Source: Eubacterium sp. (lineage in GTDB: Bacteria; Bacillota; Clostridia; Lachnospirales; Lachnospiraceae). Taken from it: DNA of 33,889 bases. The DNA lies in contig JAGAOE010000063.1 of the NCBI GenBank assembly GCA_017623885.1, forward strand, positions 1 to 33,889, in the 5' to 3' direction. Positions within the stretch are counted from its first letter, which is position 1. Every line of letters starts with the position of its first letter. Below, piece by piece: positions 3,880 through 24,733 of the stretch. Made by a program: the position numbers and the translations under genes. The notes under the pieces are model-generated. The model was given only the letters and a program-made list of their open reading frames with translations. It had not been told where the DNA came from and did not search any database.

Positions 3880-3903
3880 TGTACTCCTCCTTCTAACTGT
3901 CTG

Positions 3904-6000: not shown

Positions 6001-6017
6001 TTGTTCTTCCCCTCCTT

Positions 6018-9104: not shown

Positions 9105-9513
9105 AAGATTCTTCCTCTACATCTGCATTCAGATAAAATGGAAATACCAAATTATCTCTTTGATTTGTCGCGCTCACATAATAGTCAATATTTACAATCA
9201 AACAGCCTTCTCGCGTCTCTGTATCCATTGTAATCTCTATATCGCTTACACGCGGCTCCTGCTCCATAATCTGCTCCATAATCGTACGTCGCATCATATT
9301 TAAAGTCGTAGCATTTACATCCATAAATGTATAAGACATCAATGTGCTCCCATACCCCGGACGAACAAAACGCTCTGTTTTTTGTGTCATTAAAATCAGA
9401 TAAATCGATTCTTTTACACTTTGCTCCTCGGATGAGACCATAAATCTTCCCGTCGCAGGATTAATTTGTGGCGGAAATTTCATTCCGCTTCCCAAAAACT
9501 TTTTTTCCGGCAT
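9055..9513 (-). CDS. gp25/GPW baseplate wedge protein
   Basis: The 152-aa product matches the small gp25-type wedge (Pvc9-like). Visible features are INPATGRFMVSSEEQSVKES, the conserved RFVRPGYGSTLMSYTF block, MRRTIMEQIMEQEPRVSDIEI and NIDYYVSATNQRDNLVFPFY. gp25 joins the first sheath ring to the baseplate and primes sheath assembly. After the family core the protein adds an acidic tail of repeated YESEQ units. That tail is encoded in the 50-nt overlap with the next gene, which reads it in another frame. It follows the spike gene by 22 nt with a good ribosome binding site (AAAGGAGTAAAG). Confidence 0.9.
   Translation of the reverse strand: MPEKKFLGSGMKFPPQINPATGRFMVSSEEQSVKESIYLILMTQKTERFVRPGYGSTLMSYTFMDVNATTLNMMRRTIMEQIMEQEPRVSDIEITMDTETREGCLIVNIDYYVSATNQRDNLVFPFYLNADVEEESYESEQYESEQYDEDSD
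9075..9104 (-). repeat. Dual-coded 15-bp tandem repeat in a gene overlap
   Basis: Two near-identical 15-nt units (ATGARTCAGARCAAT) lie in the overlap of the gp25 and J genes. In the gp25 frame they read YESEQ-YESEQ; in the J frame they read MSQSN-MNQNN. Each unit supplies an ATG in the J frame, giving candidate starts at 9104, 9089 and 9074. Confidence 0.8.
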
Positions 9514-9535
9514 ACTTTACTCCTTTCCTACGACC

Positions 9536-10354
9536 TTAGCCAATCTTTATCGGTTTTCCTTCTACCGTAACAGGACCGCTGCTTCTGACGGTTGCCTTTG
9601 AGCTGCCTTCTGCGTTCAGTGTTGCACCAAACAGATTCACACTCTTATTTGCTTCTACTTTCACGCCATTCATCGCAGATACGCGAAAATCTTTTGTTTC
9701 CAGTTCTGTCACACCGCTGGAGCCGTTCATCGTCAATGTAATTGTTTCGCCCACTTTAATCGTCAATTTTGTCGCGGCTTTTATCTCCATTTGTCCGTTC
9801 GCGGTCTGCATTTCTATCATATTCATCTCGTCTTGATCTTTAATCGTGATGGTATGCTTTGCATTGTCCAGTGTAATGCTGTGTGAAGCACCCATATCGT
9901 CTCCCGCTGTTCGGATTGTAATTTTGTCAGATGCACCTTCTCCGGGATTATCCTCGATTTCAATCGCATTTCCGTTGTGTGTGACAATGCGCTTGTTTTT
10001 ATTGATAGAATCGGCTGTTTTTTTCAGAAACATATCGTTTGTTTTCGGAACTGCTCCTATCACATACGGACGCTCAATATTTCCCTGTTCGAATGCCACT
10101 AATACCTGATCTCCAATCTCCGGCATAAAATAAACGCCCCATTGCGATCCCGCATAAGGCATCACGAGTCTTGCCCAGCGCAATTGATTTCCCTCGTCTC
10201 GTGACGGTACAGATACGCACAAACGTCCCGGCATTGTGATGTCATAATTTTGAACAACCGTTCCGACTACCACACCCAACACACGATTATCTCCGGTATC
10301 TGTCTTTGTAATTTGTTTTTCAGCGATATCATCAATAATATCAAATAATGCCAT
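9536..10354 (-). CDS. Spike protein, gp5/gpV-like OB fold plus needle (C-terminal half of a VgrG)
   Basis: The 272-aa protein has an OB-fold of the Phage_base_V type at about residues 25-108 (VVVGTVVQNYDITMPGRLCV, WARLVMPYAGSQWGVYFMPE, GDQVLVAFEQGNIERPYVIG). It is followed by repeating short strands (ITLDNAKHTITIKDQ, MEIKAATKLTIKVGETITLT and others) that fit a trimeric beta-helix needle. In Afp/Pvc machines this part is fused to the gp27-like hub. Here the hub is the separate gene just upstream, overlapping this one by 14 nt. The needle should be capped by the DUF4280 tip protein encoded about 10 kb upstream. No toxin extension follows the needle. Confidence 0.9.
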   Translation of the reverse strand: MALFDIIDDIAEKQITKTDTGDNRVLGVVVGTVVQNYDITMPGRLCVSVPSRDEGNQLRWARLVMPYAGSQWGVYFMPEIGDQVLVAFEQGNIERPYVIGAVPKTNDMFLKKTADSINKNKRIVTHNGNAIEIEDNPGEGASDKITIRTAGDDMGASHSITLDNAKHTITIKDQDEMNMIEMQTANGQMEIKAATKLTIKVGETITLTMNGSSGVTELETKDFRVSAMNGVKVEANKSVNLFGATLNAEGSSKATVRSSGPVTVEGKPIKIG

Positions 10355-11714
10355 TTAACAGACCTCCTACTGATCCCAATCCATCTGCCACATCTCCAAG
10401 CGCATCCGCTGCTGCGCCCGCATTTCCTGCCACTGCAGCAACCGTTCCGCCAAACATACCTCCGATGCCACTGCCTCCGGCAGAATAGGAACCACCCAAT
10501 CCGGCAGCTTTTGCGGTAATTGTCGTAGAAAAACCCCGATTTCCATTCATCACATGTCGCACACTGACCACATAAAACAAGTTGTTTACCGGATCTCCCA
10601 TGCCAATCAGTTTGATAAATCTGCCTACTACGATATCCGGTATACCGATAATTTCTGCCTCAAGCGTGCCGAACCGATATGCAATATCTTCTGCCAGATA
10701 ATCGGCGCGATAACCGGCATCCAATTTACTGTCTGCCGTCGGATCAATATAAACTTTTGCAGAATTTTTCACTAAATTTTTCGCATATTTCCCTTTTGAA
10801 ATTTTATTATTTAATTTCACCGAGCTGGATATCTGCTGTGCCTTTCCGACATCCGTGCTTCGCACTTCGATTTCACCGACCAGTCCGGTCACATCGTATT
10901 CAACATCGATATTTCTCATACCTGTCGCCGGTGACAACTCCATTAGCACAGATGCATAGTTTTTCGCTTTTCGAAAATAAACCACACCACCGCTCACAAA
11001 AAATTCGTAATTGAATTTCTTTGCTGCCTTTACAACAAATTCATAATCACTTTCCGCTACCATCTCTACAGACTTGTCGGTAACCATTCCTACCGACGGC
11101 GTAGCAGCTCCCGGAATTCCGCCTGCCAATGCTCCACCAAAATCACCAGCCGCACTACCGCCCGCGATGCCTTCAAGTCCCATCTTATCAGGTGTATCTG
11201 TGATACTTACGCGTTTTATTACACCGCGATCCTGCATCTGTGTATAGCGCAATTGCGAAAATATAGAACTTACCGCATCGGAATAACACGTCGATGTCAT
11301 CTGCTTGGAATAACAGCTCGACATCATCATTCCCTTGATATCCATGCAAGTCACGCGCACACCGGGAATTTCATCTTCCTGAAAAAAGAAATTTACCTGT
11401 GAGATAAAACCACAAAAAACTTCTTTTACAACACTGCCATATCCAAGCGATATAGAAACCTGCGCACCAATCATGACATACTTTTTTATCTTGTCATATT
11501 CAAAGCTACACGTTAATCGATTATAGCAACCATAAACAACAAACGATGCGATTCCGGCCTCATAGCCGCTTGTGACGTCTATCTCTATCTCTCCAATCGA
11601 CAGCTTTGTTTTTGCCTGATTGATTACTTTGCCTTCCACTTCGACATGCGCAACCGGATTGGCAAAATTCTGATATTCTTTTTTCAAATTTTCAAAACTA
11701 ATTTCCGCTGCCAT
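10341..11714 (-). CDS. Baseplate hub, phage late control gpD/gp27-like
   Basis: The product has the gpD/gp27 hub layout: an N-terminal barrel (about residues 1-130, with GYEAGIASFVVYGCYN and VSISLGYGSVVKEVFCGFIS), a middle part with DYEFVVKAAKKFNYEFFVSG, and a C-terminal barrel with RYGTLEAEIIG-like sequence (YRFGTLEAEIIGIPDIVVGR). The hub forms the trimeric ring that carries the spike and joins it to the tube. The last 60 residues are Gly/Ala-rich low complexity, which is odd for the family. I start at the ATG at 11714 (457 aa) with GAAAGAG upstream; a TTG at 11729 would add five residues. With the next gene it makes up a split VgrG, in contrast to the fused Pvc8. Confidence 0.85.
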   Translation of the reverse strand: MAAEISFENLKKEYQNFANPVAHVEVEGKVINQAKTKLSIGEIEIDVTSGYEAGIASFVVYGCYNRLTCSFEYDKIKKYVMIGAQVSISLGYGSVVKEVFCGFISQVNFFFQEDEIPGVRVTCMDIKGMMMSSCYSKQMTSTCYSDAVSSIFSQLRYTQMQDRGVIKRVSITDTPDKMGLEGIAGGSAAGDFGGALAGGIPGAATPSVGMVTDKSVEMVAESDYEFVVKAAKKFNYEFFVSGGVVYFRKAKNYASVLMELSPATGMRNIDVEYDVTGLVGEIEVRSTDVGKAQQISSSVKLNNKISKGKYAKNLVKNSAKVYIDPTADSKLDAGYRADYLAEDIAYRFGTLEAEIIGIPDIVVGRFIKLIGMGDPVNNLFYVVSVRHVMNGNRGFSTTITAKAAGLGGSYSAGGSGIGGMFGGTVAAVAGNAGAAADALGDVADGLGSVGGLLNGII

Positions 11715-11738
11715 TCTATTCTCTTTCAACTCTTTTGC

Positions 11739-12611
11739 TTATTTGCTAAGATTCAAAATACTTCCTGCTTTCTGTCCGAAAGCAACTCCACTCTTGCTTC
11801 CACCGCCAAACGCATTCATATATGCGTCTTCCCAGTTTCCCATGCTGGAAGGTGATACCTCTGCATCTGCACAAATCAAAGACAATTGCACGTATGCACG
11901 CACCGGCTCACCTGCGCTGTTAAACATCGTATACTGTGAGGATACACGGTTTAGTACACCACAGTAGAGCATATTCCCCCAATAAAAAGTAATCGTTCTC
12001 GTATAAGGGGAGCGCAAGGCTGCAATCAAGCCTTCTACTTCCTGCTGTACACTCAGCTTTCTGTTCACTTTGCTAAGTGCCTTTCTCGCACCTGCCTTTA
12101 CGAAATCCGACGCAGCAATATTTGTTTTTGCATTTAAAAAACAGTCTGTAGGTTCCATTCGGTCAAACAACAATCTGACACTGAAATTGATACGCACCGG
12201 AGCCGGTTCATAGGAAATATTACCGGATATATCCTTGCTCTTGCTGTCTCCTTTATTAAATGCAGTCGTCTCGATACGACCACCACCATAACCTTCAACA
12301 TGGATATCGCTGGGGTTAAACTGAACCTCGAAGGTCTTTTTTACGCCTGCCATTGATGCCTCTGATAAATCTAATTTATCAATATTTTTGTTTCCGTTAA
12401 GTACATTTGAAATCGCATCACCGATTACTCCCGGAAACATTGCCGCTGTTGTATTATCCAAATTTCCAAATGCATTATCGGTAAGAGACGCAAGGCCACC
12501 CGGGGCACCATCGGATGCAGGCACGTTTTTTTTGACTACATCATCCAATTCTCGTAAATCCAGAATCTCGATAATCGCTTTTTCATTTACAAAAAAGTTT
12601 TTTACACCCAT
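11739..12611 (-). CDS. CIS tube/Pvc7-like baseplate adaptor, copy B
   Basis: The 290-aa protein has the CIS_tube (Pvc7 N-terminal) pattern: FEVQFNPSDIHVEGYGGGR, a SVRLLFDRMEP strand, RSPYTRTITFYWGNMLYCGV and SQYTMFNSAGEPVRAYVQLSL. It shares the opening MG-K-FF and the overall block order with the preceding gene, so the two are paralogues. Family members sit between the tube and hub/spike and usually carry a LysM domain, which I do not see here. The ATG at 12611 is preferred (AAGGTG 8 nt upstream, and the MGVKNFF start matches the MGAKDFF start of the paralogue) over a GTG at 12620. Confidence 0.82.
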   Translation of the reverse strand: MGVKNFFVNEKAIIEILDLRELDDVVKKNVPASDGAPGGLASLTDNAFGNLDNTTAAMFPGVIGDAISNVLNGNKNIDKLDLSEASMAGVKKTFEVQFNPSDIHVEGYGGGRIETTAFNKGDSKSKDISGNISYEPAPVRINFSVRLLFDRMEPTDCFLNAKTNIAASDFVKAGARKALSKVNRKLSVQQEVEGLIAALRSPYTRTITFYWGNMLYCGVLNRVSSQYTMFNSAGEPVRAYVQLSLICADAEVSPSSMGNWEDAYMNAFGGGSKSGVAFGQKAGSILNLSK

Positions 12612-12628
12612 AGCTATCACCTTTATGT

Positions 12629-12661
12629 TTCTATCAAATTTCTATCAAATTTCTTTCAAAT
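12629..12661. repeat. Three tandem 11-bp repeats between two paralogues
   Basis: Two exact copies of TTCTATCAAAT (12629-12639, 12640-12650) and one with a single change (12651-12661) fill most of the gap between the two CIS-tube-like genes. A degraded fourth copy may run into the stop of the upstream gene. They may be simple slippage. Confidence 0.8.
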
Positions 12662-12666
12662 TCCCA

Positions 12667-13515
12667 TTAAATATTCAGGTTTAATATCGAATTACTGGTT
12701 ATTTTTGACGCGGTACTTGCGCCCTTGGTCGTACTGGCAACGGCACTTGCTCCAAAAGCCTTCGTAAACGCTTTTTCCCAATACTTATTTTCGTATTTTG
12801 CGGTCGGATCTTCCGATTGGCGAATCGAAATCTGAATCTCGCCACGTACCGGATTTCCCCGCGTATTAAACATTTTATAATTCGAATTTACACTTGTAAG
12901 TTCTCCTTGAAAGCACATCTTTGCCCAAAAGAAGATGACATGTCGCGTCACAGGCATCGTCAGCAACGCCATGATACCGTCCATTTCATCTTTTACAGAA
13001 TAGTCGTTCACCTTGCTTTTTATCAAATCTGTCGCTACGCCTGCCGCATTTCCTATCGTTGGTGCCACATTTGATATCATAAACGAATCTTGCGCATTTA
13101 CCGCATCGAATAATAGCTGGACACTCAATGTCGTGGCAACCGGCTCTGTGTTCTGGCGAAGCTGATTATTTCCTGCATCACCCATTGATGTTGCTCTAAA
13201 ATTTTTCTGACTTCCTGCCACTGTTTCCATGTATATGCTGGACGGATTGTACGGTACCTCCAACGCAAGATAACCGTTCTTGTGAACGATGCTGTTTTCA
13301 GCACCTTGGGTAAGCGTCCGAAATGTCTGCATCACACTCGAACCGTCCGCACTCATTTTACTCAGCAAACTGTCTCTCAAATCATCCGATTTTTTTATCA
13401 TATCTTCAACAGAAAGCGTCCCTATTTTTTTCGGGTCCGGCACACATAATATCGCTTTTGGAATATTACCTGTCACCTGTCTGCCTAAATCATAAAAAAA
13501 ATCTTTTGCACCCAT
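12667..13515 (-). CDS. CIS tube/Pvc7-like baseplate adaptor, copy A
   Basis: The 282-aa protein has the same block order as copy B: LALEVPYNPSSIYMETVAG, TLSVQLLFDAVNAQDSF, MPVTRHVIFFWAKMCFQGEL and SNYKMFNTRGNPVRGEIQIS. These are the marks of the CIS tube protein N-terminal domain found in Pvc7-type adaptors. No LysM-like sequence follows; the C-terminus is a short Ala/Ser/Thr-rich tail ending SNSILNLNI, which resembles the GSILNLSK end of copy B. The role is inferred to be symmetry matching between tube and hub. It follows the Q/E-rich gene by 18 nt with a good ribosome binding site (GGCAGGTATAACGA before ATG). Confidence 0.82.
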   Translation of the reverse strand: MGAKDFFYDLGRQVTGNIPKAILCVPDPKKIGTLSVEDMIKKSDDLRDSLLSKMSADGSSVMQTFRTLTQGAENSIVHKNGYLALEVPYNPSSIYMETVAGSQKNFRATSMGDAGNNQLRQNTEPVATTLSVQLLFDAVNAQDSFMISNVAPTIGNAAGVATDLIKSKVNDYSVKDEMDGIMALLTMPVTRHVIFFWAKMCFQGELTSVNSNYKMFNTRGNPVRGEIQISIRQSEDPTAKYENKYWEKAFTKAFGASAVASTTKGASTASKITSNSILNLNI

Positions 13516-13533: not shown

Positions 13534-15594
13534 TTAATAGCCACGTCTACGTTTTTCAGTTTCTAAACGCTTTTCCAGCTTTGCATATATCTTCTCAGAT
13601 AATGCACCCAACTCTTTTTGCACACCCTGACGTACTAATTCCGAAACATTTTCTGTTTGCTGCACCATCCGATCCGTATTTATATTCTGATATGTGCGTT
13701 CCTTCTGCTCATAGTTTGTCACTGTTTCAGAAGTCGTTTTTACCGTCTGGTTCATCTGACGGTTTTGAATCAGCATCTGTTCAATATATTCTTCATCAAT
13801 CTGCTGTTCCTGCTGTTTATGTACAAACGTAACATTTGTGCGTTGTCTCTCATAAACTCTTTTCGGAGTCAGTTCTACCGGAATTTTGTCATTCCAGCGT
13901 TCAATCATCTCTTTGGTCTGTTCCTGTATCTGCTCCTGCTCCAAATGCACCATCTGTATTTGTTCCTGATGCGTTTGTACGTGATGAATGTCGCGGATTA
14001 AAACTCCCATGTCATTGCTCACACCTGACATTTGCCTGCGCAATTCTATCGGAGCCTCCAAATACTCTTTTACCGTCTCATAAACCAGCCGCGTCTCTTC
14101 CGGCAAAAGATTCATCGCCTTTTCTAATTCCTGCTGATGCAGTTCCTGTTGCTGTTGACCTTCCTCCTGAAGCTGCTGCAGCATTTCCTGCGGATGCTCT
14201 AAAGCCATCAGACTCTCTCTACGCATCTGCTCAGAAGTCTTTGTCTCTCCCGGTTGCTCAAACGATGCCTGTATATGCTGCATCATCTGAATATATCTGC
14301 TCTGGTTATTTATGTTTTCACGATTAATTCGAGATATTTCTTCTTCTACCACAGACAAATTTCTGGCATCTACCGTCTGCTGCTCATAATGTCTGTGTTC
14401 ATCCTGATAACGATATTCCTCTTGTGTTACATAATCCTCTTCAACGGTTTCATTCCATTGATTGATTAAGTTTTGTTTTTCAACATGCTGTATTTCTTTT
14501 TCCGGACGAAGCATCGCCTGAACCGTCTGATATTGCGGTGAGTGATAATTCTCAAAGAGTCGGTTCATGATATCTATCTCATGGCGGTCTGCACGGTTAT
14601 GCTGCACAATATAAGTACGATTATCATCCGTATGACGATCATACCTCGCATTCATCCGATTTTCAAAACGCTTCATCGTATTGTCTGCATTCTGATAAAA
14701 TGCACGCTCCATGTGATACCAGGTATCACCCGTTCGATGGTTGCGCTCTATTTTTGCCTGGTACACATTATCGATGAAATTCAGCAACGCTGCCGATTTC
14801 ACTTGTTGTAATACATGTTCTTCGTTCAGTTCTTCCTGTGATAACTGCTGTTCCTCATAGAAATTCTCATGTCGGTAAATAAGCGGTGATGCCTCACCCC
14901 GCGCCTCATTCTTCAGTTTGTTCAGCAAAATATTTTGCGTAATGCGGCGCTGATCTGACAATTGCAGTTCTTCGCTCGTTATCACCGTATCGCCCTGACG
15001 ACGACTGTTAAAATTCTGTACCGTCTGATATATCGCTGCCGTCTGCAATCGATTCATAATCGCTTCATGCAGATGAATTTCCTGTGTTTCTTCCTGTGTA
15101 TGATGCTGCAATGACCGGCTGTAAGATTCGCTTTTATAATTCTCTACGAGTTGCTTTAATTCACCGGCATGATTCCAATACAGCTTTACCAGCTCTTCCG
15201 TATTTTGCAGTTCCTCCGTCACATGAGACACCTGCTTCATAAATTCGTTTACATTCTGAATGCCGAATTTCTGCAGTACATTTGTGATATATACGCGATC
15301 CTGATAGGTCAGCTCCGCTGATTCGCGCACCAGAATACGATTTACCAGATTGTTCATGATTTCCAGCTTATTCTCCTGAACAGTGTTCACATTCATCTGC
15401 TGAAAAATATTGGTCTGATCACCATCGCCAAAATAATACTCCGGCGGTGTGGTCATTACATGCAACAAATCCTCCGGCTGAAGTCTCTGCTGAATCATCG
15501 AATAATTACCGGTGATTCTGTGAAAAAAGCTTTCTTGCGAAGCGGATGTCGGTGCTTTACATTTTAATTCTATTGGTGCTGTAATCGTTAACAT
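13534..15594 (-). CDS. Q/E-rich helical CIS protein of unknown function, possible ruler or scaffold
   Basis: I do not recognise this 686-aa protein. It is extremely hydrophilic, rich in Gln, Glu, His and Arg, with no signal peptide or membrane helix. Long stretches look like amphipathic helix or coiled coil (for example MLQQLQEEGQQQQELHQQEL at about two thirds). The last 40 residues (VRQGVQKELGALSEKIYAKL then ETEKRRRGY) form a basic helix. It lies between the repeat-tailed tube-like gene and the Pvc7-like genes, close to where eCIS clusters keep tube-length or hub-assembly factors. A tape-measure or scaffold role is only an inference from position, size and helicity. It has an excellent ribosome binding site (GGAGG 7 nt before ATG). 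Confidence 0.6.
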   Translation of the reverse strand: MLTITAPIELKCKAPTSASQESFFHRITGNYSMIQQRLQPEDLLHVMTTPPEYYFGDGDQTNIFQQMNVNTVQENKLEIMNNLVNRILVRESAELTYQDRVYITNVLQKFGIQNVNEFMKQVSHVTEELQNTEELVKLYWNHAGELKQLVENYKSESYSRSLQHHTQEETQEIHLHEAIMNRLQTAAIYQTVQNFNSRRQGDTVITSEELQLSDQRRITQNILLNKLKNEARGEASPLIYRHENFYEEQQLSQEELNEEHVLQQVKSAALLNFIDNVYQAKIERNHRTGDTWYHMERAFYQNADNTMKRFENRMNARYDRHTDDNRTYIVQHNRADRHEIDIMNRLFENYHSPQYQTVQAMLRPEKEIQHVEKQNLINQWNETVEEDYVTQEEYRYQDEHRHYEQQTVDARNLSVVEEEISRINRENINNQSRYIQMMQHIQASFEQPGETKTSEQMRRESLMALEHPQEMLQQLQEEGQQQQELHQQELEKAMNLLPEETRLVYETVKEYLEAPIELRRQMSGVSNDMGVLIRDIHHVQTHQEQIQMVHLEQEQIQEQTKEMIERWNDKIPVELTPKRVYERQRTNVTFVHKQQEQQIDEEYIEQMLIQNRQMNQTVKTTSETVTNYEQKERTYQNINTDRMVQQTENVSELVRQGVQKELGALSEKIYAKLEKRLETEKRRRGY

Positions 15595-15618: not shown

Positions 15619-17313
15619 CTAGTTTTTCTTTAAAAATTTCGCAACTTCGGCTGCGCTTCTTGTCGGCGGCCATTGTCTGGCTCGTTTCTGCATGATGGGT
15701 TTCTTGATTTCGAGCGGGTTTGTCACTGCACTCGTTCCCGTCGTTCCTGCATGTTTCTTTTCACGCTTACCGCCCGGCAAATAATAGCGCTTTGCACGCA
15801 TCGCCATCACATTTTTGCCCAGTTCGTTCGCATTTGTCTTTGCACTGGAACGAATCGTTCCCTTATAAGCACTCAACGATTTTGAACCGGCGATAAAATA
15901 CCTGCGTTGTCCCTGCGTCTCTTTCATCGCAGAGCTTCTTCCGCGTTTGTCAGCGCTCTGAGACTCCTCTGTTCCGTTATATTTTCGTTTTCCGGCAGTC
16001 TCTTTCATCGCAGAGCTTCTTCCGCGCTTATCCGAGCTTTGCGTTTCTTCTGTTCCGTTATAACGCACCGCTTTACGTTCCATCTCTGCTTTACTCAATT
16101 GCTGCTCATCTCTTGTCGCACTTGTCGCAACAGTTCCTGCATAAGTAGACACACTCTTGGAGCCAGGAAGAAAATAGCGTTTTGCTTTTTCCATCTGCTC
16201 GCTCTTTGACGTCATCTCCCTGCCACGCTTATCCGCACTGGCTGTGCTTTCCGTTCCGTCATATCTGCGCTGCCCCTGCGTCGACTGCATCGGCATCTTC
16301 GTCGCAATTCCGGGTACGCTCTTGTCACCAACCGTTGTAGTTCCGACTTTTGTACCTTTATACTGGCTGATATGTGTCGGAACATTATCCAAATCAGGGT
16401 CTACATACATGCGAGCCGCTTTTTCCATTTCACTCTTATTCATAGCTGCTGTACCGAGCAGCTTTTTCTGTGTCGTCGCGCTTGTTTCAGACACACCCTT
16501 ATACTCTGCTTTTGATACGGACTCGTCAAAAAAGAATCGTTTTGCTTCCTGCTCTAATTCACTTTGCGGTGTCATAACATTTTTTGTAGCAATACCGATT
16601 TTCGTCTCACCGGTCTTATAATTTTTCTTGCTCGAAATTTTTTTGCCGGGATAATTGATGATTCGAAGCGGCGTTTCTTTTACCTTGTCATCTACATACA
16701 TCTGCGCGCGTTCTTCCATCTCGCTCTTTGATAACATATTATCCGGTGAGCTTGCATATTTGTTCGTCGGTCTGCCGTCTGCATCCTTATCTTTCTTAAT
16801 GTCCCACATCGCCTTTGTCATACCGGTTGACGGATTATCCAAACAAATCATCTCACGGTATGCGATTGTCGTCGTCTCTACCAGAAGACCACCACGCTCT
16901 GCATTTAATTCACCGTATTCCTTTGCAATCACCGTGCATCCGGTAAAGGTATAGATGCGCTGCGGCTGTTCCCATCCTCCCGCTGCACCTTCGCCCTGAT
17001 AGCGACTGACAGATAAGAGCACCGGTAAAATCAAATCCGTACCTAACGCCAACGGATCAAACATATCGACACCGACATAGCGCTCTACCTGAAATGTAAA
17101 CGGATTTGATATCGGTTTTCGAAGCATATGCACATAATCATTCAATCCACCTTCCTGATAGTGCTCATACTCGTTTTGTCTCTGAAAAACGTGTACTGAC
17201 TTACACGGTAAATTGTATGCTCCTTCTACCTGCAATGTGAAATTGTAATTAACAAGCGGCGTCAAGCCTTTATTTTCCCAAACTGCAAAATCTAAACCTT
17301 GCCAAAAATCCAT
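15619..17313 (-). CDS. gp19/tube-like protein with a long basic repeat tail
   Basis: Residues 1-165 read like a second tube-type (gp19/Pvc5-like) domain: LVNYNFTLQVEGAYNLPCKS, FQRQNEYEHYQEGGLNDYVH, NPFTFQVERYVGVD and VIAKEYGELNAERGGLLVET. Such a domain would form the first tube ring on the hub. From about residue 190 to 564 there is a tail of roughly ten imperfect units of 24-37 residues. Many start like SKSEMEKAARMY or AMKETQGQRRY and end near Y-x-GT followed by S/T-rich sequence, with DKRGR recurring. The tail is strongly basic and probably disordered or bead-like. I start at the ATG at 17313 (AGAGGT 8 nt upstream); a TTG at 17319 adds two residues. It follows the frameshift region by 38 nt. 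Confidence 0.8.
   Translation of the reverse strand: MDFWQGLDFAVWENKGLTPLVNYNFTLQVEGAYNLPCKSVHVFQRQNEYEHYQEGGLNDYVHMLRKPISNPFTFQVERYVGVDMFDPLALGTDLILPVLLSVSRYQGEGAAGGWEQPQRIYTFTGCTVIAKEYGELNAERGGLLVETTTIAYREMICLDNPSTGMTKAMWDIKKDKDADGRPTNKYASSPDNMLSKSEMEERAQMYVDDKVKETPLRIINYPGKKISSKKNYKTGETKIGIATKNVMTPQSELEQEAKRFFFDESVSKAEYKGVSETSATTQKKLLGTAAMNKSEMEKAARMYVDPDLDNVPTHISQYKGTKVGTTTVGDKSVPGIATKMPMQSTQGQRRYDGTESTASADKRGREMTSKSEQMEKAKRYFLPGSKSVSTYAGTVATSATRDEQQLSKAEMERKAVRYNGTEETQSSDKRGRSSAMKETAGKRKYNGTEESQSADKRGRSSAMKETQGQRRYFIAGSKSLSAYKGTIRSSAKTNANELGKNVMAMRAKRYYLPGGKREKKHAGTTGTSAVTNPLEIKKPIMQKRARQWPPTRSAAEVAKFLKKN
15917..16026. repeat. 81-bp direct repeat inside the repeat-tailed tube-like gene
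   Basis: A 29-bp block is identical at 15917-15945 and 15998-16026, exactly 81 bp (27 codons) apart, within two adjacent protein units that both encode DKRGRSSAMKET. This is the best conserved pair of the repeat tail and suggests a recent in-frame duplication. Confidence 0.8.
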
Positions 17314-17351
17314 ATACAATTACCTCTCTGTCGAACTGTTTGCTGCTAGTA

Positions 17352-17570
17352 TCATCTGCTCGGTTTCATATCAAGAATACTTTTTTCTTTCGGTTTTTTG
17401 GAGGGATTCAAGTTCTTATTTATCTCTGATATCTCACTACACCATCGTCTGCGGCTCATATGGTCAAGCTGCATCACTTCATCCATGCCCCAGTGAAAAT
17501 AATACGAGATAAAAGACATTTCCCGATAAAGCTCCTCTTTCGGATATAACTTTATCCCTCCTCGGTAAAA
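17352..17570 (-). CDS. DUF6760-like small CIS protein, probably made by -1 frameshift
   Basis: In the -1 frame relative to the chaperone gene, translation from the slip site gives 72 residues: FYRGGIKLYPKEELYREMSF, then ISYYFHWGMDEVMQLDHMSR and RRWCSEI, ending in a basic tail (KKPKEKSILDMKPSR). The LYP..ELY.E....YYFHW..DEV..L.H..RRRW pattern matches DUF6760, a small family encoded after the tail assembly gene in many eCIS loci. No ATG, GTG or TTG lies before the conserved GG..LYP start. The first internal ATG (17519, 55 aa) would cut off the conserved LYP-ELYRE part. The frame opens at the slippery heptamer 17570-17576, so a frameshift fusion of about 187 aa is the favoured reading; reinitiation at 17519 is the alternative. 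Confidence 0.7.
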   Translation of the reverse strand, partial: FYRGGIKLYPKEELYREMSFISYYFHWGMDEVMQLDHMSRRRWCSEISEINKNLNPSKKPKEKSILDMKPSR

Positions 17571-17914
17571 TTTAAAGGCACCTGAAAAATCTCACCACAG
17601 GAAGGACATACGACTTCCATCATGGGCGGCTCGATATCGTTGATTCTCTGATACATATCCTGCAAAAAAGCAAGATCGGCAGTAAACAACTTCTCGATAA
17701 TATTTGCGCCAATCATCGGAATACCTTCCAGCTCAGTCACTACCTTGCTCAGAATCACAATCGTCAAATAAGAAGGATTGCTCAGTACACGCGGATCTCT
17801 GGTCGCACTTATTTCATCTCCTGCTGTCGCCAGACGCATCTTTCCGTGTCTATGAAGTTCTCCGTTACTGTCCATATATCCTTTCGGAAGGGTAAATTCA
17901 AATACTGTTTCCAT
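17552..17914 (-). CDS. Phage/CIS tail assembly protein (chaperone-like)
   Basis: The 120-aa protein matches the eCIS/phage tail assembly family placed right after tube genes: FEFTLPKGYMDSNGELHRHG, KMRLATAGDEISATRDPRVL, NPSYLTIVILSKVVTELEGI and LFTADLAFLQDMYQRIND. Near the end it has a VCPSCGEIF CxxC pair, possibly half a metal site. In phages, such proteins chaperone tube, tape-measure or hub assembly, often as a short form and a frameshifted long form. The start ATG has GAGGAG upstream. The last codons contain T_TTA_AAT in exactly the register needed for -1 slippage, and the -1 frame continues into the DUF6760-like sequence. Confidence 0.8.
   Translation of the reverse strand: METVFEFTLPKGYMDSNGELHRHGKMRLATAGDEISATRDPRVLSNPSYLTIVILSKVVTELEGIPMIGANIIEKLFTADLAFLQDMYQRINDIEPPMMEVVCPSCGEIFQVPLNFTEEG
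17570..17576 (-). promoter_or_regulatory. Candidate -1 ribosomal frameshift site (T_TTA_AAT)
   Basis: The minus-strand sequence CCT TTA AAT TTT contains TTTAAAT in the X_XXY_YYZ register of the zero frame, 19 nt before the zero-frame TAA. Slipping back one base after AAT opens the DUF6760-like frame with no stop for 72 codons. A small GGATA/TATCC stem lies downstream; no clear upstream Shine-Dalgarno stimulator was seen. Confidence 0.6.
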
Positions 17915-18048: not shown

Positions 18049-18546
18049 TTAGTTCGGAATAATCAATTCTTCGTAAGCAATTTCAACTGACTCGATTGCT
18101 ACTTCACTTGTTTTTGCATCAAGATCCGGTGCATTGTACTTGCTTACCCATGCATTTGTCAAAATCCATACACGTGTGCCGGTAATGCTGTCTACTCTTG
18201 TCTGAGGCGCGCCACCGTTAATGTCGATCATCTCGATCTGTACGTTATTACGAGGCATCTCACCACGAACCTCGCTCACACATTCCTGAATCCATGTCTT
18301 AAATGCGCTATCCAGTGTATAACCAAATTTCAAGGTTACATTTCCATGCTTTACAAGTCCGGGAATCTTAACCGGTGCAAGGCTGCTGGCATTTCCCTGA
18401 CGGAACTCAATTACATCTACACTAGCTTCCACGCCACTTACCTCACTAAACGCTGCGGTTCCACTCACACCGTCTACAGTGACGAGGAAGTTCATTTTAG
18501 TCAACGGATACGCAAGATTTTTTCCATCGCTTTCATATGTTGCCAT
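18049..18546 (-). CDS. Inner tube protein (gp19/Hcp-like fold)
   Basis: This 165-aa protein has the usual length and sequence of CIS/phage T4 gp19-type tube subunits: YPLTKMNFLVTVDGVSGTAA, FSEVSGVEASVDVIEFRQGN, the conserved KIPGLVKHGNVTLKFGY block, FKTWIQECV, and an ending NAPDLDAKTSEVAIESVEIA followed by YEEL. Hexamers stack into the tube that is driven through the target envelope. It follows the sheath by 39 nt with a strong ribosome binding site (AAAGGAGAG). The paired hairpins right after its stop may help keep its mRNA abundant. A second tube-like protein is encoded at 15619-17313. Confidence 0.93.
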   Translation of the reverse strand: MATYESDGKNLAYPLTKMNFLVTVDGVSGTAAFSEVSGVEASVDVIEFRQGNASSLAPVKIPGLVKHGNVTLKFGYTLDSAFKTWIQECVSEVRGEMPRNNVQIEMIDINGGAPQTRVDSITGTRVWILTNAWVSKYNAPDLDAKTSEVAIESVEIAYEELIIPN

Positions 18547-18585: not shown

Positions 18586-20283
18586 TTACTCTTCTCCGCC
18601 ACTAGCTTCTGCTGTGTGCTGAGTTACACGGAAGATTACAAATTCTGCAGGACGAGACGGTGCAATACCGATGTTGCAGATTAACTTTCCGCTCATAATG
18701 TCATCTTTACTCATAGTAGAAGGTCCAATCTCTACAAAATATGCCTCTGAAGCAGATCCGCCTGCAAGCATTCCGGTTCTCCACATACCATCAAGGAAGG
18801 AAGAAATTGTCATGCTGACTCTCTGCCACAATGTCGCATCGTTGGGCTCGAATACAACCCAGTTTGTATTTGCCTTAATGCTCTCCTCCACATAGATGAA
18901 GAGACGGCGAACGTTAATATACTTGAATGCGCTGTTGCTGCTGGCAGTCTTCGCACCCCAAATACGGATACCCTGTCCAGGGAAGAAACGAATCAGGTTG
19001 ATTCCTTCCGGATTTAAGATATCCTGCTCTGCCTTTGTATAATTGGTCTTCAAACCGGTACAGAATACCGTCTCATTTGCCGGAGCTTTATGTACGCCGC
19101 GATTGATATCTGTTCTTGAATATACACCAAGTACAGCACCTGACGGCGGAATGAAATCTGCCTTGTTGGATGCGCGGTCAAATACCTGAATCCAGGGATG
19201 ATACATAGCAGCATATGTAGAATCAATCATATTTCTGTACTCAATCAGCTCTGCTGTCTTGTACATATCCTTCGGCATATCAATGACAGCCACACGGTTC
19301 TTTAAGCTCTCGCAATGTCCTACTAATGCTACGATTACTTCCGGAATTGTCACACCGGGAACTGCCATCATGCTTACCAGCTCATTTTCTACGAATGACT
19401 GGATACCGGTACGCTTTCCGGGACCACCATCTTCACCGATAAAGGTAGCTGCATTTACTTTGTTCATAGAACCATCGCTACCACCTTCAAGTGTAATCAT
19501 ACCGCTGCTCTGTCCCTCGCCGAGAATCGCTTCTACCGGATTTCCAACGGTTTTCATCACGTCAACGCTCACCTTTACGAGCTCGCTGGATGCTAACTTA
19601 GATCCGATATAGTTCGGAGAAGCAGTGTTAAAGCTTAACTCTGTATAATTCTCTGCTTCGTCATTGTAACGAACGCTTGCATCCACTGTAACCAGATATA
19701 ATACGGTCTTCGGAACAAGTGCATCGTCCACTACTTTTCCGGTAAACGGCTGCTCAAAAACAATCGCATTGTCAAAAATAGATTTAATCTTGTTATACTC
19801 GCCATTTACTACTACTAAGTCACCTTCACGGAATCCTTCTACAGATTTTGCGATGTAACCTTCACCGGCTTCTGATACTAACTGCATTTTCTTCTTTGTT
19901 ACGGTATTAAAGGACATTTGAATGCGATTTCCCCACTTACCTTCATTTGCAGCTTCGATGGTAAGGATACCTGCAGTCTTCTTAGCAACTTTTGCATCTG
20001 CAGGGATTACACGTGATACGAAACAACGAGTTCCTCCGTTTGCAAAGAACTGCTCTACGCTGTTCGCAAGATAACGATATTCGCCATGTGTAAACTCGCT
20101 CAAAAATCCGCCAAACTGCTTCGTAAAGCTCTTAAAGCTTGTCACCAGTAAGGGAGCTCCGATTGCAGCACCTTTTTCTGCAAGACCCACAAAACCTGCG
20201 GTACTTGTTCCTACTCCTTCAATGCTACGAGGGGAATTATCATATTCCTCGACATATACGCCAGGTGATAAATATTCAGCCAT
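18586..20283 (-). CDS. Contractile sheath protein
   Basis: This 565-aa one-piece sheath opens with the classic MAEYLSPGVYVEEYDNSPRS then IEGVGTSTAGFVGLAEKG. It closes with the sheath C-terminal fold: FFPGQGIRIWGAKTASSNSA, FKYINVRRLFIYVEESI, WVVFEPNDATLWQRV and a strand NIGIAPSRPAEFVIFRVTQH. The sheath contracts around the tube to drive injection. A middle insertion of about 250 residues is the variable outer domain. Only one sheath gene is present, whereas Afp and Pvc have three and T6SS has a two-protein sheath. Its ribosome binding site is strong (AAAGGAGAAA). The tube gene follows by 39 nt, the order typical of CIS loci. Confidence 0.95.
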   Translation of the reverse strand: MAEYLSPGVYVEEYDNSPRSIEGVGTSTAGFVGLAEKGAAIGAPLLVTSFKSFTKQFGGFLSEFTHGEYRYLANSVEQFFANGGTRCFVSRVIPADAKVAKKTAGILTIEAANEGKWGNRIQMSFNTVTKKKMQLVSEAGEGYIAKSVEGFREGDLVVVNGEYNKIKSIFDNAIVFEQPFTGKVVDDALVPKTVLYLVTVDASVRYNDEAENYTELSFNTASPNYIGSKLASSELVKVSVDVMKTVGNPVEAILGEGQSSGMITLEGGSDGSMNKVNAATFIGEDGGPGKRTGIQSFVENELVSMMAVPGVTIPEVIVALVGHCESLKNRVAVIDMPKDMYKTAELIEYRNMIDSTYAAMYHPWIQVFDRASNKADFIPPSGAVLGVYSRTDINRGVHKAPANETVFCTGLKTNYTKAEQDILNPEGINLIRFFPGQGIRIWGAKTASSNSAFKYINVRRLFIYVEESIKANTNWVVFEPNDATLWQRVSMTISSFLDGMWRTGMLAGGSASEAYFVEIGPSTMSKDDIMSGKLICNIGIAPSRPAEFVIFRVTQHTAEASGGEE

Positions 20284-20327: not shown

Positions 20328-20720
20328 TTACGGTGTACGAACCATTGTCTGTCCGGGATAGGTAACTGATATCGCGCCCATCCCATTCGTACACATCACT
20401 TTGCAATCACTCGTCAGACACGGCTTTCCGTTTACTAAAACGGTCGGCTTTGTCGGTATCCACGTTCCGGCTGTCACCGGCATACACGGTTGCGGAGTCA
20501 GCACACCCAGCGCTGCCGCTGTCGCTGATGCAACCTGCGGATTGGCAAGTGACGAGCACATCCCGAACGGCGAAATGTTTACCATCGGCTGCGCATCCTG
20601 TATGGTCGCCACCGGCATACCTCCTGCAATTGTTAGTTGCTGCGACGATACTTGCAAAGTTGACGGTGTCGCTCCAAACGGACATTGCAACACCGCACCT
20701 GATACTACGATTTCTCCCAT
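20328..20720 (-). CDS. DUF4280 PAAR-like spike tip protein
   Basis: The 130-aa protein follows the DUF4280 pattern: MGEIVVSGAVLQCPFGATPS, an ISPFGMCSSLANPQVASATA block, LTPQPCMPVTAGTWIPTKP and VLVNGKPCLTSDCKVMC. These proteins fold as PAAR-like cones that sharpen the spike and often bind metal. Five or six cysteines lie in the expected places, though the usual C-x-C-x-W-G-G end is replaced by MCTNGMGAISV. It lies 10 nt after the unknown 247-aa gene and 44 nt before the sheath, far from its inferred partner, the spike gene at 9536-10354. The ribosome binding site is good (AGGAG). Confidence 0.88.
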   Translation of the reverse strand: MGEIVVSGAVLQCPFGATPSTLQVSSQQLTIAGGMPVATIQDAQPMVNISPFGMCSSLANPQVASATAAALGVLTPQPCMPVTAGTWIPTKPTVLVNGKPCLTSDCKVMCTNGMGAISVTYPGQTMVRTP

Positions 20721-20730
20721 GAACTTACTC

Positions 20731-21474
20731 CTATTCCAATTCGTTTTCTTTACAATTGTGAAAATCTACCGTTTGGAAACGCCATTCTCCGTTCACACAG
20801 TAACGAACCAAATACGATAGAATGGTCGCATTGTCTCTGACTCGAAGTAAGTATTTTCCATCCTCTGATACTTTTCCAAATATCACACGGGAAATCGGTG
20901 CATTCACCACGAATGGTTCCTGTAATGGTTGTTTCAGCTTTACCTCATCCGGAGGATTTTCTTTCAAAACCTCAAAATGTTCAAATCGTTTTCGGTCTCC
21001 ACTGATCAAACCATAGTGAACACTCTCCATATTTAATCTGCCCTGTGAAAGAAACAATTTCATCAATCGTTTTCTCTCATCAAATTCACTAATGCAGAAA
21101 TATGAGTGTGCGAGGTCTACTGCCTCTATTTCTTCCAGACCTGAAAGGGTACCGGTAAGCGAGAGGAGCTTTTCTCCTTTGCTGTAGTTCTCTGACGGTA
21201 TCAGGAACACTTGCTTTAGAGGCATCATTTCATCAAGCTTTTCGTACTCTACCAACATTCGGCATTCCTCATAACCAAATACTTTTAGCGTCAAAACGAA
21301 ATTTTCGCGCCCTGTATTAATGAAAACAAAGTTTCCACTTCCTCTTGGGATGGGTCTGATCTGATTGCCGTTCTTATAAAAGCGTACATCCTTTTCATCT
21401 ACAGTATTTCCGGTCGTTGTATCGACCAACTGAAGAATAAGGTCTAACTTGAAGCAAATCGTTGATGCATCCAC
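20731..21474 (-). CDS. Unknown CIS-locus protein, beta-rich
   Basis: I do not recognise this 247-aa protein. It has no signal peptide or membrane helix. The first 90 residues (LDLILQLVDTTTGNTVDEKD, FYKNGNQIRPIPRGSGNFVF, FVLTLKVFGYEE) look like a small beta-sandwich of the carboxypeptidase-regulatory kind, with a second beta-rich half after a charged middle. It lies between the Pvc16-like cap gene (10 nt) and the DUF4280 tip gene (10 nt), so a structural or assembly role is likely but unproven. The start is a GTG with AGGAGG 12 nt upstream, a rather long spacing; in-frame stops directly upstream exclude an earlier start. Confidence 0.6.
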   Translation of the reverse strand: MDASTICFKLDLILQLVDTTTGNTVDEKDVRFYKNGNQIRPIPRGSGNFVFINTGRENFVLTLKVFGYEECRMLVEYEKLDEMMPLKQVFLIPSENYSKGEKLLSLTGTLSGLEEIEAVDLAHSYFCISEFDERKRLMKLFLSQGRLNMESVHYGLISGDRKRFEHFEVLKENPPDEVKLKQPLQEPFVVNAPISRVIFGKVSEDGKYLLRVRDNATILSYLVRYCVNGEWRFQTVDFHNCKENELE

Positions 21475-21483
21475 TGAAACTCA

Positions 21484-22074
21484 CTACCTCCTTTCTTCGC
21501 CTGTAATGTGCAGATCGAACGAAGCTTCTGCAACGCGAGGCGTATTGATTACCACCTCACTGGACAGGAATACGGGTGCCGCCTTATAGAACAGGCTAAT
21601 CTGATATGGCTTATTGATTGCCTGCCACACCCTTACCTTTTCCTCCAAACTTATCTTCGCCTGAGACAGTGTAATCGGAGGTTCTTGTGTGTCCAGCCAC
21701 CTCTGCAACTGGTTTGGCAGAACAGAATTGTTATCATTTACAATCTGTGCTACTCTACCAATGATTTTTTGTATATCCGGTGCCTTTAATCCCATCTGGG
21801 AGGAACCGTTGATAAATACCATATAGTACACTCCATATGGTCTTGGCGGTCTTTGAAGCTGTACCTGACCTCTTTGCATAAGAGGCCGCTGTGTGACCTC
21901 ACTCTCTTCACGAACATCATACAAATACAATCCTACAATGTAATCCACATCCTGATCTGCTGGTGAAGAAATTTCTATATTGTTCGGAGAAGGAATCGGC
22001 TCCGGACACATTTTTTCTCGCAGTGTCCGGACGATATATGCACTTACATCCGAAATAATTGTATAATCTGCCAT
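21484..22074 (-). CDS. Pvc16/DUF4255-like tail terminator cap
   Basis: The 196-aa protein matches the Pvc16 N-terminal (DUF4255) family: DYTIISDVSAYIVRTLREKM at the start, DYIVGLYLYDVREESEVTQR, RPPRPYGVYYMVFINGSSQ, a KIIGRVAQIVNDNNSVLPNQ helix, and a C-terminal KPYQISLFYKAAPVFLSSEV. In Afp and Pvc this protein caps the end of sheath and tube away from the baseplate and fixes their length. Here it is the first of the structural genes, 20 nt after the exported helical protein gene, with GAGGTG six nt before ATG. Its cap end would face the membrane module if the particle is anchored, so it is a candidate contact point. Confidence 0.85.
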   Translation of the reverse strand: MADYTIISDVSAYIVRTLREKMCPEPIPSPNNIEISSPADQDVDYIVGLYLYDVREESEVTQRPLMQRGQVQLQRPPRPYGVYYMVFINGSSQMGLKAPDIQKIIGRVAQIVNDNNSVLPNQLQRWLDTQEPPITLSQAKISLEEKVRVWQAINKPYQISLFYKAAPVFLSSEVVINTPRVAEASFDLHITGEERR

Positions 22075-22094: not shown

Positions 22095-24719
22095 TCATTC
22101 TCCGGCAAATGCCTTGTATAACTTCTCTGCCGCTTCCTTTATCTGTTTGGTCAGACATGCACCATAATTCGTATCAATCACATACTCTGCCTCACATTCA
22201 AAATACTGTTTTGCAGTCACTTCATCAATGTATGGTGTATCTTGGAACTCTATCTTATAAGTATCCATCTCTGCCTGCGTTCCGTCTGTAAATGTGATTT
22301 TATTGCTACCAACTAAGAAACGATATGTCGTTGCCCGTTTTGTCAGTGTCGCTTCCCGTCTCGAATCACTATATACATATCTGTATCCTGACGCATCTGC
22401 CATAACAGGTATCGGCAAAAACTGCATTTGCTTCTGTTCCTTAAACTGCGTATACACATACGGATGATTGTTCAGCTTGCATTGTGTAATATATTCTTTT
22501 GCCAATGCACTTGCATTTACATTGCTGTGCTTATCAAACAGCCAATCCAACGCAACCGCCGCAGCCAACTGACTATTTGCGTCTAATTCCTCAAACGAAC
22601 CGCCAAATACCTCTTCAATCAGATTCTTCAGCTCATTTGCAGTCAATGTAGCCGGTGTACCGCTCACGCCGCCGCTACCGGTTCCACTTCCTGTTCCGCT
22701 ACCGGCACCACTTCCTGTTGTGCTTGCGGCATTTGCTTTGTCATACAAGCTGCTTTCCTTGCTTGCTGCCAGAGCACTTTCCAACGTTTTTTGTGCGTTT
22801 TCCTTGTCCTTATCAGACAAGTTTGAATCTTTCAGCGCATCCTTAATCTGGTTCAGTGCATTTTCCGCTCCAAGAATACCAAGTGAATTCAAAGATTCTT
22901 CCAAACCGGACGTTTCATTATTATTTATCGCAGCCAATGCATCTTTTAAGATGTCATCAATATTACCGAGCAACGCTGAATTTCCTAACGCCACCTCTGC
23001 AGCCGCTTTATCCGCATCAGAAGCAGTCTCTGAGTCTAATATTGCATTTAAGCGCGCCTCTTCTGCTGCAATCTGCTTGCTGACATCCTCTGCAAGCGTC
23101 TTATATTGCGCTGCCAGCTCCAAATTATTATCATCCAAAGCTTCTGCCTGCTTATCCTCATATTCCTGCAATTTCTGCTTCAATCGTTCCAGCTCAGACA
23201 TCAGACTCGCGTCACCGTCTGCAATACCCTGTGCCAACTCATTCAGCCACTCGATATGTGCAGCTATCGAACCTTTTACATAACTTTCAAAGTCATCATC
23301 CGGAACATTTTTTTCCTGTGTATGAGACCACGAAATACGCTCCATTGTGTAATTCCATGCATCCGTTGATGACATTCTCGTCTTCTTCGCAAGTATCATC
23401 TGCTGTAAATCCGTACGCAGACTATCCAATGTCACCTGTTCGTTTTTCAGCATGTTTTCTAATAAAACACTCGACTTTCCGGCACTTTTTGCAGCCTTAT
23501 ACTCTGCCGAAGGTCCCGCTTTCATCGCATCCTCATAAGCTTTTTCGACTTGCGGTATAAACTCATTTTCAATCAGGCGTAATTCCTGCTCCTTATCGAG
23601 CACTACATCATTTTCAATATTCGTCGCATATTGAATCTCGCGAAGTAACGCAATCATTGCACTGTCAACCGTAATCACGCTCTCTCCGCTGGACTTACAC
23701 AAGTCAATCAATGCTTTATTCTTTTGATAGATATAATCACGTATAAGGGAACCGCCTTCTGCCAGCTGCTTCGACTGGTACTTTGTGTAACTCTTTTTAC
23801 ACTGCTCAAAACTGCTGGTCACTGCTTCTATCAGCATGGTATCTGCGATAAATGCAGCGTTCTCATAGTTGGCCGGCTGATAATTCGCTCCGTTCACATC
23901 GTTGAGCAGCGATTCCAAATAGCTTTTTTCCATCTCACTCAACTGACGAAAAACTTCCATTCTTCGCGTTGCATCCACAGATTCCATCAAAGTCGTAACA
24001 AGCTGCGCTTCCTCTGTCATACTTGCTGCGCATAACGCTTCATACAGCTTTTGCAGCTCCTGCAATGCTTTGTCACATTCTGTTGTTGTATCATTTCTGA
24101 CATTCGAACTGAAAAACGTTGTAAGCCGCTCATACAAATATTTGTATGCACCTTCACCCTGACTCAAATATTCGCTTTGATAATTCTGACGAATCGGGTC
24201 CAGCTCTGCTAATTCCATCAGCTTGTAAGGGTCCGGTGTATCAAACAAACATACCACAGCACCGGTCTTCGCATCCTTTGTCAAACCGTCTTTTCCGGTA
24301 TAATGCGTCACCCAAAGATCATCCAGCGCAGACTCTTCTATCGGTGTACCCGCCGCCGTAATATCCGAAAGTCCTTCCGCCTCTGTTATTTCAAACCAGA
24401 AACCGTCTGCCAGCTCAGATTTGTAATAAATGCTCTGCTGATTTGATTCTGATGCGGTCGTTACTGCCATTTCATACAATTCATCTGTCAGCGCCAGCAT
24501 ATGCACCAGATGTGTACCAATAAAAAGAACCGAATCCTCTATCGTATTCGACTGCCTATAGGCACGAAACCGGACTGCTTTGCTCTCATCGAAAACTGCG
24601 CTTGCCCGAATAGCCGGAATGCTCATCACAAGAACAACAACTGCTAAAGCAGATGCAACGATTGCCATCGTCTTCTTTTTTGTTTTTCTAATGTCTTTTT
24701 TCCTGCTCACTTCTCTCAT
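22095..24719 (-). CDS. Exported long helical protein with Gly/Ser linker and C-terminal beta domain
   Basis: The 874-aa product begins with a very basic start and one hydrophobic segment (about residues 18-40, MAIVASALAVVVLVMSIPAI then RASA), a signal peptide or anchor. The long middle part is Ala/Glu/Lys-rich helix, with strong coiled coil around ELERLKQKLQEYEDKQAEAL. A Gly/Ser/Thr linker follows at about residues 666-690, then a beta-rich end (about 750-855; GYRYVYSDSRREATLTKRAT, YRFLVGSNKITFTDG) that faintly resembles the copper amine oxidase-like stalk domain of Gram-positive surface proteins. The ATG at 24719 is preferred (AAAGGA six nt upstream) over the overlapping ATG at 24734. It probably works outside the membrane with the TolC-like protein encoded just before it. 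Confidence 0.65.
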   Translation of the reverse strand: MREVSRKKDIRKTKKKTMAIVASALAVVVLVMSIPAIRASAVFDESKAVRFRAYRQSNTIEDSVLFIGTHLVHMLALTDELYEMAVTTASESNQQSIYYKSELADGFWFEITEAEGLSDITAAGTPIEESALDDLWVTHYTGKDGLTKDAKTGAVVCLFDTPDPYKLMELAELDPIRQNYQSEYLSQGEGAYKYLYERLTTFFSSNVRNDTTTECDKALQELQKLYEALCAASMTEEAQLVTTLMESVDATRRMEVFRQLSEMEKSYLESLLNDVNGANYQPANYENAAFIADTMLIEAVTSSFEQCKKSYTKYQSKQLAEGGSLIRDYIYQKNKALIDLCKSSGESVITVDSAMIALLREIQYATNIENDVVLDKEQELRLIENEFIPQVEKAYEDAMKAGPSAEYKAAKSAGKSSVLLENMLKNEQVTLDSLRTDLQQMILAKKTRMSSTDAWNYTMERISWSHTQEKNVPDDDFESYVKGSIAAHIEWLNELAQGIADGDASLMSELERLKQKLQEYEDKQAEALDDNNLELAAQYKTLAEDVSKQIAAEEARLNAILDSETASDADKAAAEVALGNSALLGNIDDILKDALAAINNNETSGLEESLNSLGILGAENALNQIKDALKDSNLSDKDKENAQKTLESALAASKESSLYDKANAASTTGSGAGSGTGSGTGSGGVSGTPATLTANELKNLIEEVFGGSFEELDANSQLAAAVALDWLFDKHSNVNASALAKEYITQCKLNNHPYVYTQFKEQKQMQFLPIPVMADASGYRYVYSDSRREATLTKRATTYRFLVGSNKITFTDGTQAEMDTYKIEFQDTPYIDEVTAKQYFECEAEYVIDTNYGACLTKQIKEAAEKLYKAFAGE

Positions 24720-24733
24720 GCCTTTTCCTTTCA

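Follow-up and report, generated by a model that had tools for sequence, protein, structure and literature searches.

The stretch of DNA that we analysed (the window, 33,889 nucleotides) is one whole contig of a metagenome genome that is 76% complete and whose relatives are named Lachnospiraceae. Nearly all of its genes lie on the minus strand, as do all features given with coordinates in this and the next two paragraphs except the accessory region, and they form a single contractile injection system (CIS) operon. The operon begins with a CIS13-like protein (31391–33196; NCBIfam CIS13_fam, E 8e-25, under the cut-off), followed by membrane and secreted accessory proteins, by a Pvc16-type cap and a PAAR-like/DUF4280 protein with a 247-aa protein without assignment (together 20328–22074; Pfam), and by the sheath protein (18586–20283; Pfam). 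Then come a 165-aa tube protein of the gp19 fold (18049–18546; Pfam gp19, E 5e-31), a small 120-aa protein that is conserved in related loci (17552–17914), and a 55-aa DUF6760 protein (17352–17519; Pfam DUF6760, E 7.8e-14), a putative Pvc6/Cis6-type plug. Next to these lie a second gene with a tube fold and a repeat tail, here called gp19rep (15619–17319), and a Q/E-rich, mostly helical 686-aa protein (13534–15594). The last part of the operon comprises two CIS7-like CIS_tube (PF19266) proteins (11739–13515; Pfam), a VgrG-related hub, spike, gp25, two baseplate proteins and a Tail_P2_I/CIS12-like protein (2785–11729), and STAS and MATE genes that were named by eye from the sequence. The gene set in the window covers sheath, tube, spike, gp25, baseplate, cap and PAAR; an AAA ATPase lies beside the operon in relatives instead. 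Judged by gene content, the operon is a CIS of the Lachnospiraceae type, phage-tail related and eCIS-like.

The 686-aa protein has conserved ends and a variable middle, and by its position and shape appears tape-measure-like; it gave no PDB fold match and no convincing family match. Both tandem CIS_tube proteins end in S-I-L-N-L-like peptides, and their order is swapped in some relatives. The accessory genes upstream of the sheath gene (22095–30528) are conserved, are also present in the related loci L025, L029 and L030, and are syntenic across genera. Among the accessory genes of these loci and the window are a secreted-looking 879-aa protein with a weak match to a copper amine oxidase N-terminal domain, a TolC-like protein in a Clostridia genome, a MORN-repeat membrane protein and an 818-aa membrane protein. 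These genes may anchor the CIS in the envelope.

By the open reading frame list and by family and fold searches, gp19rep encodes a tube-fold protein of 566 aa when read from a TTG. An in-frame ATG at 17313, two codons inside this frame, lies about 9 nt past GAGAGG and is probably the start. The N-terminal part is a gp19/CIS5-like beta domain (residues 20–165 by alignment; 16825–17262) with 51–74% identity over nine aligned relatives, the strands of which reach an AlphaFold pLDDT of up to 93. A preliminary description had reported a repeat tail after this domain, and we found that the tail, the last 376 residues with ten unit heads (residues 191–566; 15622–16749), is real. Its best ungapped self-match scored 133, compared with 38 ± 5 for 200 shuffles that preserved composition (highest score 60). 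Heads of the form A/G-basic-basic-aromatic, a pattern written only once the heads had been seen, occurred 10 times, where 0.3 were expected and no more than 2 were seen in any of 1000 shuffles, and DKRGR and Y-x-GT occurred three and six times, respectively. Units of 24–37 residues had been described; the last six head-to-head intervals span 27–38 residues (29, 37, 28, 27, 37 and 38) and the first three span 43–54 (54, 43 and 49), so that the units are less regular. The 29 identical bases noted earlier are exact (first copy at 15998–16026, second copy at 15917–15945, 81 bp downstream). Tandem Repeats Finder detected no long array in the gp19rep DNA, so that, apart from the 27-aa duplication, the repeats are old and lie at the protein level.

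AlphaFold modelled the tail as disordered, with short helices predicted at several unit heads. The tail ends in a conserved terminal peptide, KPIMQKRARQWPPTRSAAEVAKFLKKN (residues 540–566; 15622–15702), which constitutes the last (tenth) unit head and was modelled with two short helices at a pLDDT of 65–82; its head recurs in degenerate form in the upstream units. The tail has a pI of 9.95 and a charge of about +31, and nearly all other proteins of the operon are acidic. No tail-like sequence was found elsewhere in the window's own genome.

In Foldseek searches with the AlphaFold model, the best PDB matches were Pvc5-type and Afp5 chains (E about 6e-7); tube and Hcp chains followed closely, and the margins between adaptor and main-tube chains were small. 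VIA-align of the domain to Hcp and CIS tube chains gave Z scores of 8–11, and in both comparisons the modelled domain has the gp19/Hcp tube fold. A sequence profile built from the domain reached Afp5 only at E 0.5. Against NCBIfam CIS5_fam (NF053770), gp19rep scored 21.6 bits (E 1.3e-4, over residues 20–68 only), far below the curated cut-off of 260 bits; among the 74 family members, CIS5_fam was matched weakly by 28 and CIS1_fam was listed for none. The better match of the 165-aa protein at 18049–18546 was likewise to CIS5_fam (E 3e-21), with CIS1_fam at E 6e-8 and neither reaching its cut-off, so sequence alone does not pick the main tube; the 165-aa protein, encoded next after the sheath gene, is presumed to be it. 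We infer that gp19rep forms a low-copy tube-fold ring, a CIS5-like inner-tube adaptor, because its gene adjoins the hub genes and because a tube of more than 20 hexameric layers would hold far more than 100 copies of a 42-kDa tail, too many for the lumen or for the space between tube and sheath. The ring is presumably hexameric, like its relatives, and would hence carry six arms. An extension beyond the tube domain had been called unusual, and solved CIS5 and tube chains are indeed about 140–153 aa long and end without such a tail.

Full-length gp19rep as a query of genome contigs returned no relatives, whereas an alignment of nine domains found 198, from which 80 related Clostridia loci were retrieved; no viral relatives were confirmed. 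Named isolates with a member of the family include Lachnospiraceae bacterium XBB2008 and Oscillibacter valericigenes An890. Tail length in the 80 loci ranges from 0 to 1054 aa and net tail charge over the family from +59 to −72. The tail had been described as basic, which is correct for gp19rep of the window and does not extend to the family. Lachnospiraceae tails are rich in aromatic residues and show a recurrent spacing, often of 27–38 residues, across otherwise dissimilar sequences. Most of them terminate with W-P-x-x-[KR]-[SR]-A and a short helix, a motif that was collected from 39 sequences although the tails are otherwise dissimilar. Other proteins of six related contigs lacked the terminal peptide, which thus names no partner. 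Oscillospiraceae tails are acidic and heptad-like, with coiled-coil family matches, and nine loci are tail-less. The same operon surrounds Lachnospiraceae-type, Oscillospiraceae-type and tail-less members, and each tail state needs several gains or losses on the tree. A partner gene gained or lost together with the tail was rejected, since the tail-less loci have the same synteny, and so was a charge match between tail and neighbour, the neighbour being acidic whatever the tail. Electrostatic binding to a negative lumen or to nucleic acid was also rejected as a general role, because the net charge flips sign across the family.

The suggestion that the tail changes length by gain and loss of repeats was confirmed in close relatives. 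The gp19 domains of L083 and L111 are 100% identical, and a single 60-aa block, equal to two 30-aa units, distinguishes the two tails. A 74-aa block separates the tails of L116 and L119, and the tails of L073 and L076 are almost unrelated, with domains that are 94% identical. Pairwise dN/dS was 0.03–0.41 for tails, compared with 0–0.12 for domains (0.3 in one low-count pair), indicating that the tail is functional and selected, yet tolerant in sequence and length. The repeat tail is genuine, lineage-wide and hypervariable, and is under purifying selection with fast sequence turnover.

The tail had also been suggested as a possible ruler for tube length. Tails do vary by whole units, and in the window's genus the lengths of tail and helical neighbour rise together over three complete loci (402/686, 448/747 and 462/775). 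Independent contrasts between tail and neighbour also gave r = 0.61, although their signs split 27 to 24, so that this value is driven by a few contrasts. However, the raw correlation of tail length with the adjacent tape-measure-like protein, used as a proxy for tube length, was rho = −0.06 (n = 57), and relatives that are nearly identical can have tails 60 to over 500 aa apart in length beside an unchanged neighbour. The relation had a negative sign when tails of up to 500 aa were taken and a positive sign when those above 300 aa were taken, and these opposite signs leave no rule linking the two lengths. Moreover, the nine loci without a tail keep the same operon. The neighbour at 13534–15594, with its conserved ends and variable middle, is a better candidate for a ruler. 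Because there is no overall length relation and tail-less operons exist, we consider a ruler function of the tail very unlikely. The extreme length variation, the tail-less homologues and the rapid turnover of units in L073 and L076 despite their similar domains would also fit a near-neutral spacer that grew by replication slippage and in which the end peptide alone is functional, but purifying selection along the tail and the recurrence of the spacing of about 27–38 residues in otherwise dissimilar tails make this quite improbable.

The remaining alternatives differ in where the tail would lie. CIS lumens are negatively charged (PMC8894135), the window's tail carries +31, and six such tails would by our estimate occupy about one third of a 3.6 × 90 nm lumen, so the tail could be imagined to fill or plug the tube as packing without specific docking. 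Against this, net tail charge is not conserved, by the same kind of estimate a set of six tails of the maximum length (1054 aa) would nearly fill a 90-nm tube, and a filler would not need a conserved end peptide. A lumen filler is physically possible but improbable, as precedent for this fold puts the C-terminus outside (PMC8718954). The C-terminal extensions of this fold are outside the tube in T5 and YSD1, and the C-arm lies on the outer sheet in 80alpha (PMC8718954); furthermore, in the CIS7-type tube protein the C-terminal LysM domain points outward and reaches the wedges (PMC8894135). These arrangements count against the lumen as the default and raise the prospect that the tail exits the ring outward and tethers the baseplate, the start of the sheath or the cell envelope through its end peptide, never entering the lumen. 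Conservation of that peptide across most Lachnospiraceae, whatever the spacer, would suit such a tether. However, the search for the peptide in other proteins of the six contigs identified no partner, the space between tube and sheath is tight, so that outer chains of 400–1000 aa would have to find a gap at the baseplate, and cargo association at the equivalent ring is known from Streptomyces CIS; we regard an outer tether as somewhat unlikely. Specialized Hcp proteins of the type VI secretion system (T6SS) are defined by C-terminal extensions over 60 aa (PMC8262886), and a tail that was itself an injected effector, like the toxin-bearing forms of these proteins, would travel with the tube tip. 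A Pfam scan of 74 family members found no toxin or enzyme domain, which led us to reject a toxin-bearing tube protein, and the tail is a low-complexity repeat; an effector role of the tail has little probability.

A tail that changes length fast and yet usually keeps its end peptide is suggestive of docking arms, with cargo as their most likely load, and not of a ruler. We tentatively favour the possibility that a low-copy tube-adaptor ring bears flexible docking arms that most plausibly capture cargo. Each arm would be a disordered tether on the tube ring that can expand by units, with six arms if the ring is a hexamer, and in Lachnospiraceae it would usually end in the conserved peptide. Since the upstream units of the window's protein echo the head of the terminal peptide, a single arm might combine several weak binding sites with a strong one. 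Most likely, the arms would capture cargo, of the DUF4157 type or other, and hold it during loading at the tube end that faces the baseplate. Docking arms seem the most likely mechanism, with cargo as the leading candidate for the partner.

Indirect support for a cargo dock comes from two Streptomyces CIS. In one of them the Afp5/Pvc5-type tube initiator SlpT2 co-eluted with the DUF4157 protein Sle2 (PMC13277306); in the other, enrichment of the DUF4157 effector Tme was accompanied by that of a probable tube initiator (PMC11126660). A DUF4157 protein is also encoded in the genome to which the window belongs (E 2.7e-17), and several related genomes carry DUF4157 genes immediately past the CIS operon. 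Median tail length was 497 aa in genomes with DUF4157 and 260 aa in those without (Mann–Whitney p = 8e-4, uncorrected for kinship), and tails of at least 600 aa were present in 7 of 15 genomes with DUF4157 compared with 1 of 59 without. This comparison was exploratory, being conceived after the data had been seen, and much of its signal came from a few clades; of eight independent pairs, five agreed, two disagreed and one was a tie. Most long-tailed genomes had no DUF4157 match, some perhaps through incompleteness, and the charges of tail and DUF4157 protein were not complementary (rho = −0.15, n = 11). The difference in tail chemistry between Lachnospiraceae and Oscillospiraceae and the unchanged operon of the tail-less loci also speak against a dock. 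The assignment to a CIS5 ring is weakened by the score of gp19rep under the curated cut-off and by the better CIS5_fam match of the other tube gene. A new class of CIS cargo-loading element, consisting of an adaptor ring with multivalent, fast-evolving arms and a conserved end peptide, the length of which would evolve with the cargo repertoire (longer where DUF4157 is encoded), is an idea that we put forward with considerable doubt.

Among known systems, the CIS5/Afp5/Pvc5 adaptor (NF053770; 6rao_F, 9qgl_5A and 6j0n_n) resembles gp19rep in its tube fold (residues 23–166, top Foldseek matches) and in its operon setting near DUF6760 and CIS7-like genes. Known members have about 148 aa and stop after the domain, whereas gp19rep adds a repeat tail and scores 21.6 bits against a curated cut-off of 260 bits. 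Specialized Hcp (Hcp-ET) of the T6SS also combines a tube-fold protein with a C-terminal extension (PMC8262886), but those extensions carry toxin domains and none was found in the gp19rep family tails. Lambda gpV, T5 pb6 and the extended gp17.1 of SPP1 have C-terminal additions to the tube domain that are dispensable for assembly in several cases (PMC8718954); these are folded Ig/FN3 domains on the main tube, in contrast to the predicted disordered repeats on a probable single ring in gp19rep. The Streptomyces tube initiator SlpT2 shares the same presumed ring, and DUF4157 proteins are found beside Clostridia operons as well; the available part of the SlpT2 report describes no repeat tail, which gp19rep has, and the link of gp19rep to cargo is predicted by analogy. 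What is already known is thus a CIS tube-adaptor-like ring, and what is added here is a genuine, selected and lineage-wide repeat tail.

Little is understood so far about how contractile injection systems select their cargo and retain it. Our literature search on CIS of gut and rumen Clostridia retrieved almost nothing, and these systems appear little studied. If the docking-arm reading is true, a tube ring with expandable arms and a conserved end peptide would provide a concrete, deletable and peptide-sized handle on loading.

Several genes near related clusters were recorded in addition. L159, L160, L161 and L162 have DUF4157 (eCIS_core) genes directly past the CIS operon, often as tandem copies, and in L159–L161 these genes follow an AAA ATPase. 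Upstream of the CIS cluster of genome G009, a 2005-aa open reading frame (L034:7132–13146) contains an ABC1-type kinase-like domain (E 1.5e-18). Upstream of the cluster of genome G050, a large open reading frame (L037:2–2605) has a terminal Novel toxin 11 (Ntox11) domain (E 1.4e-17) at its end and is a possible cargo protein.
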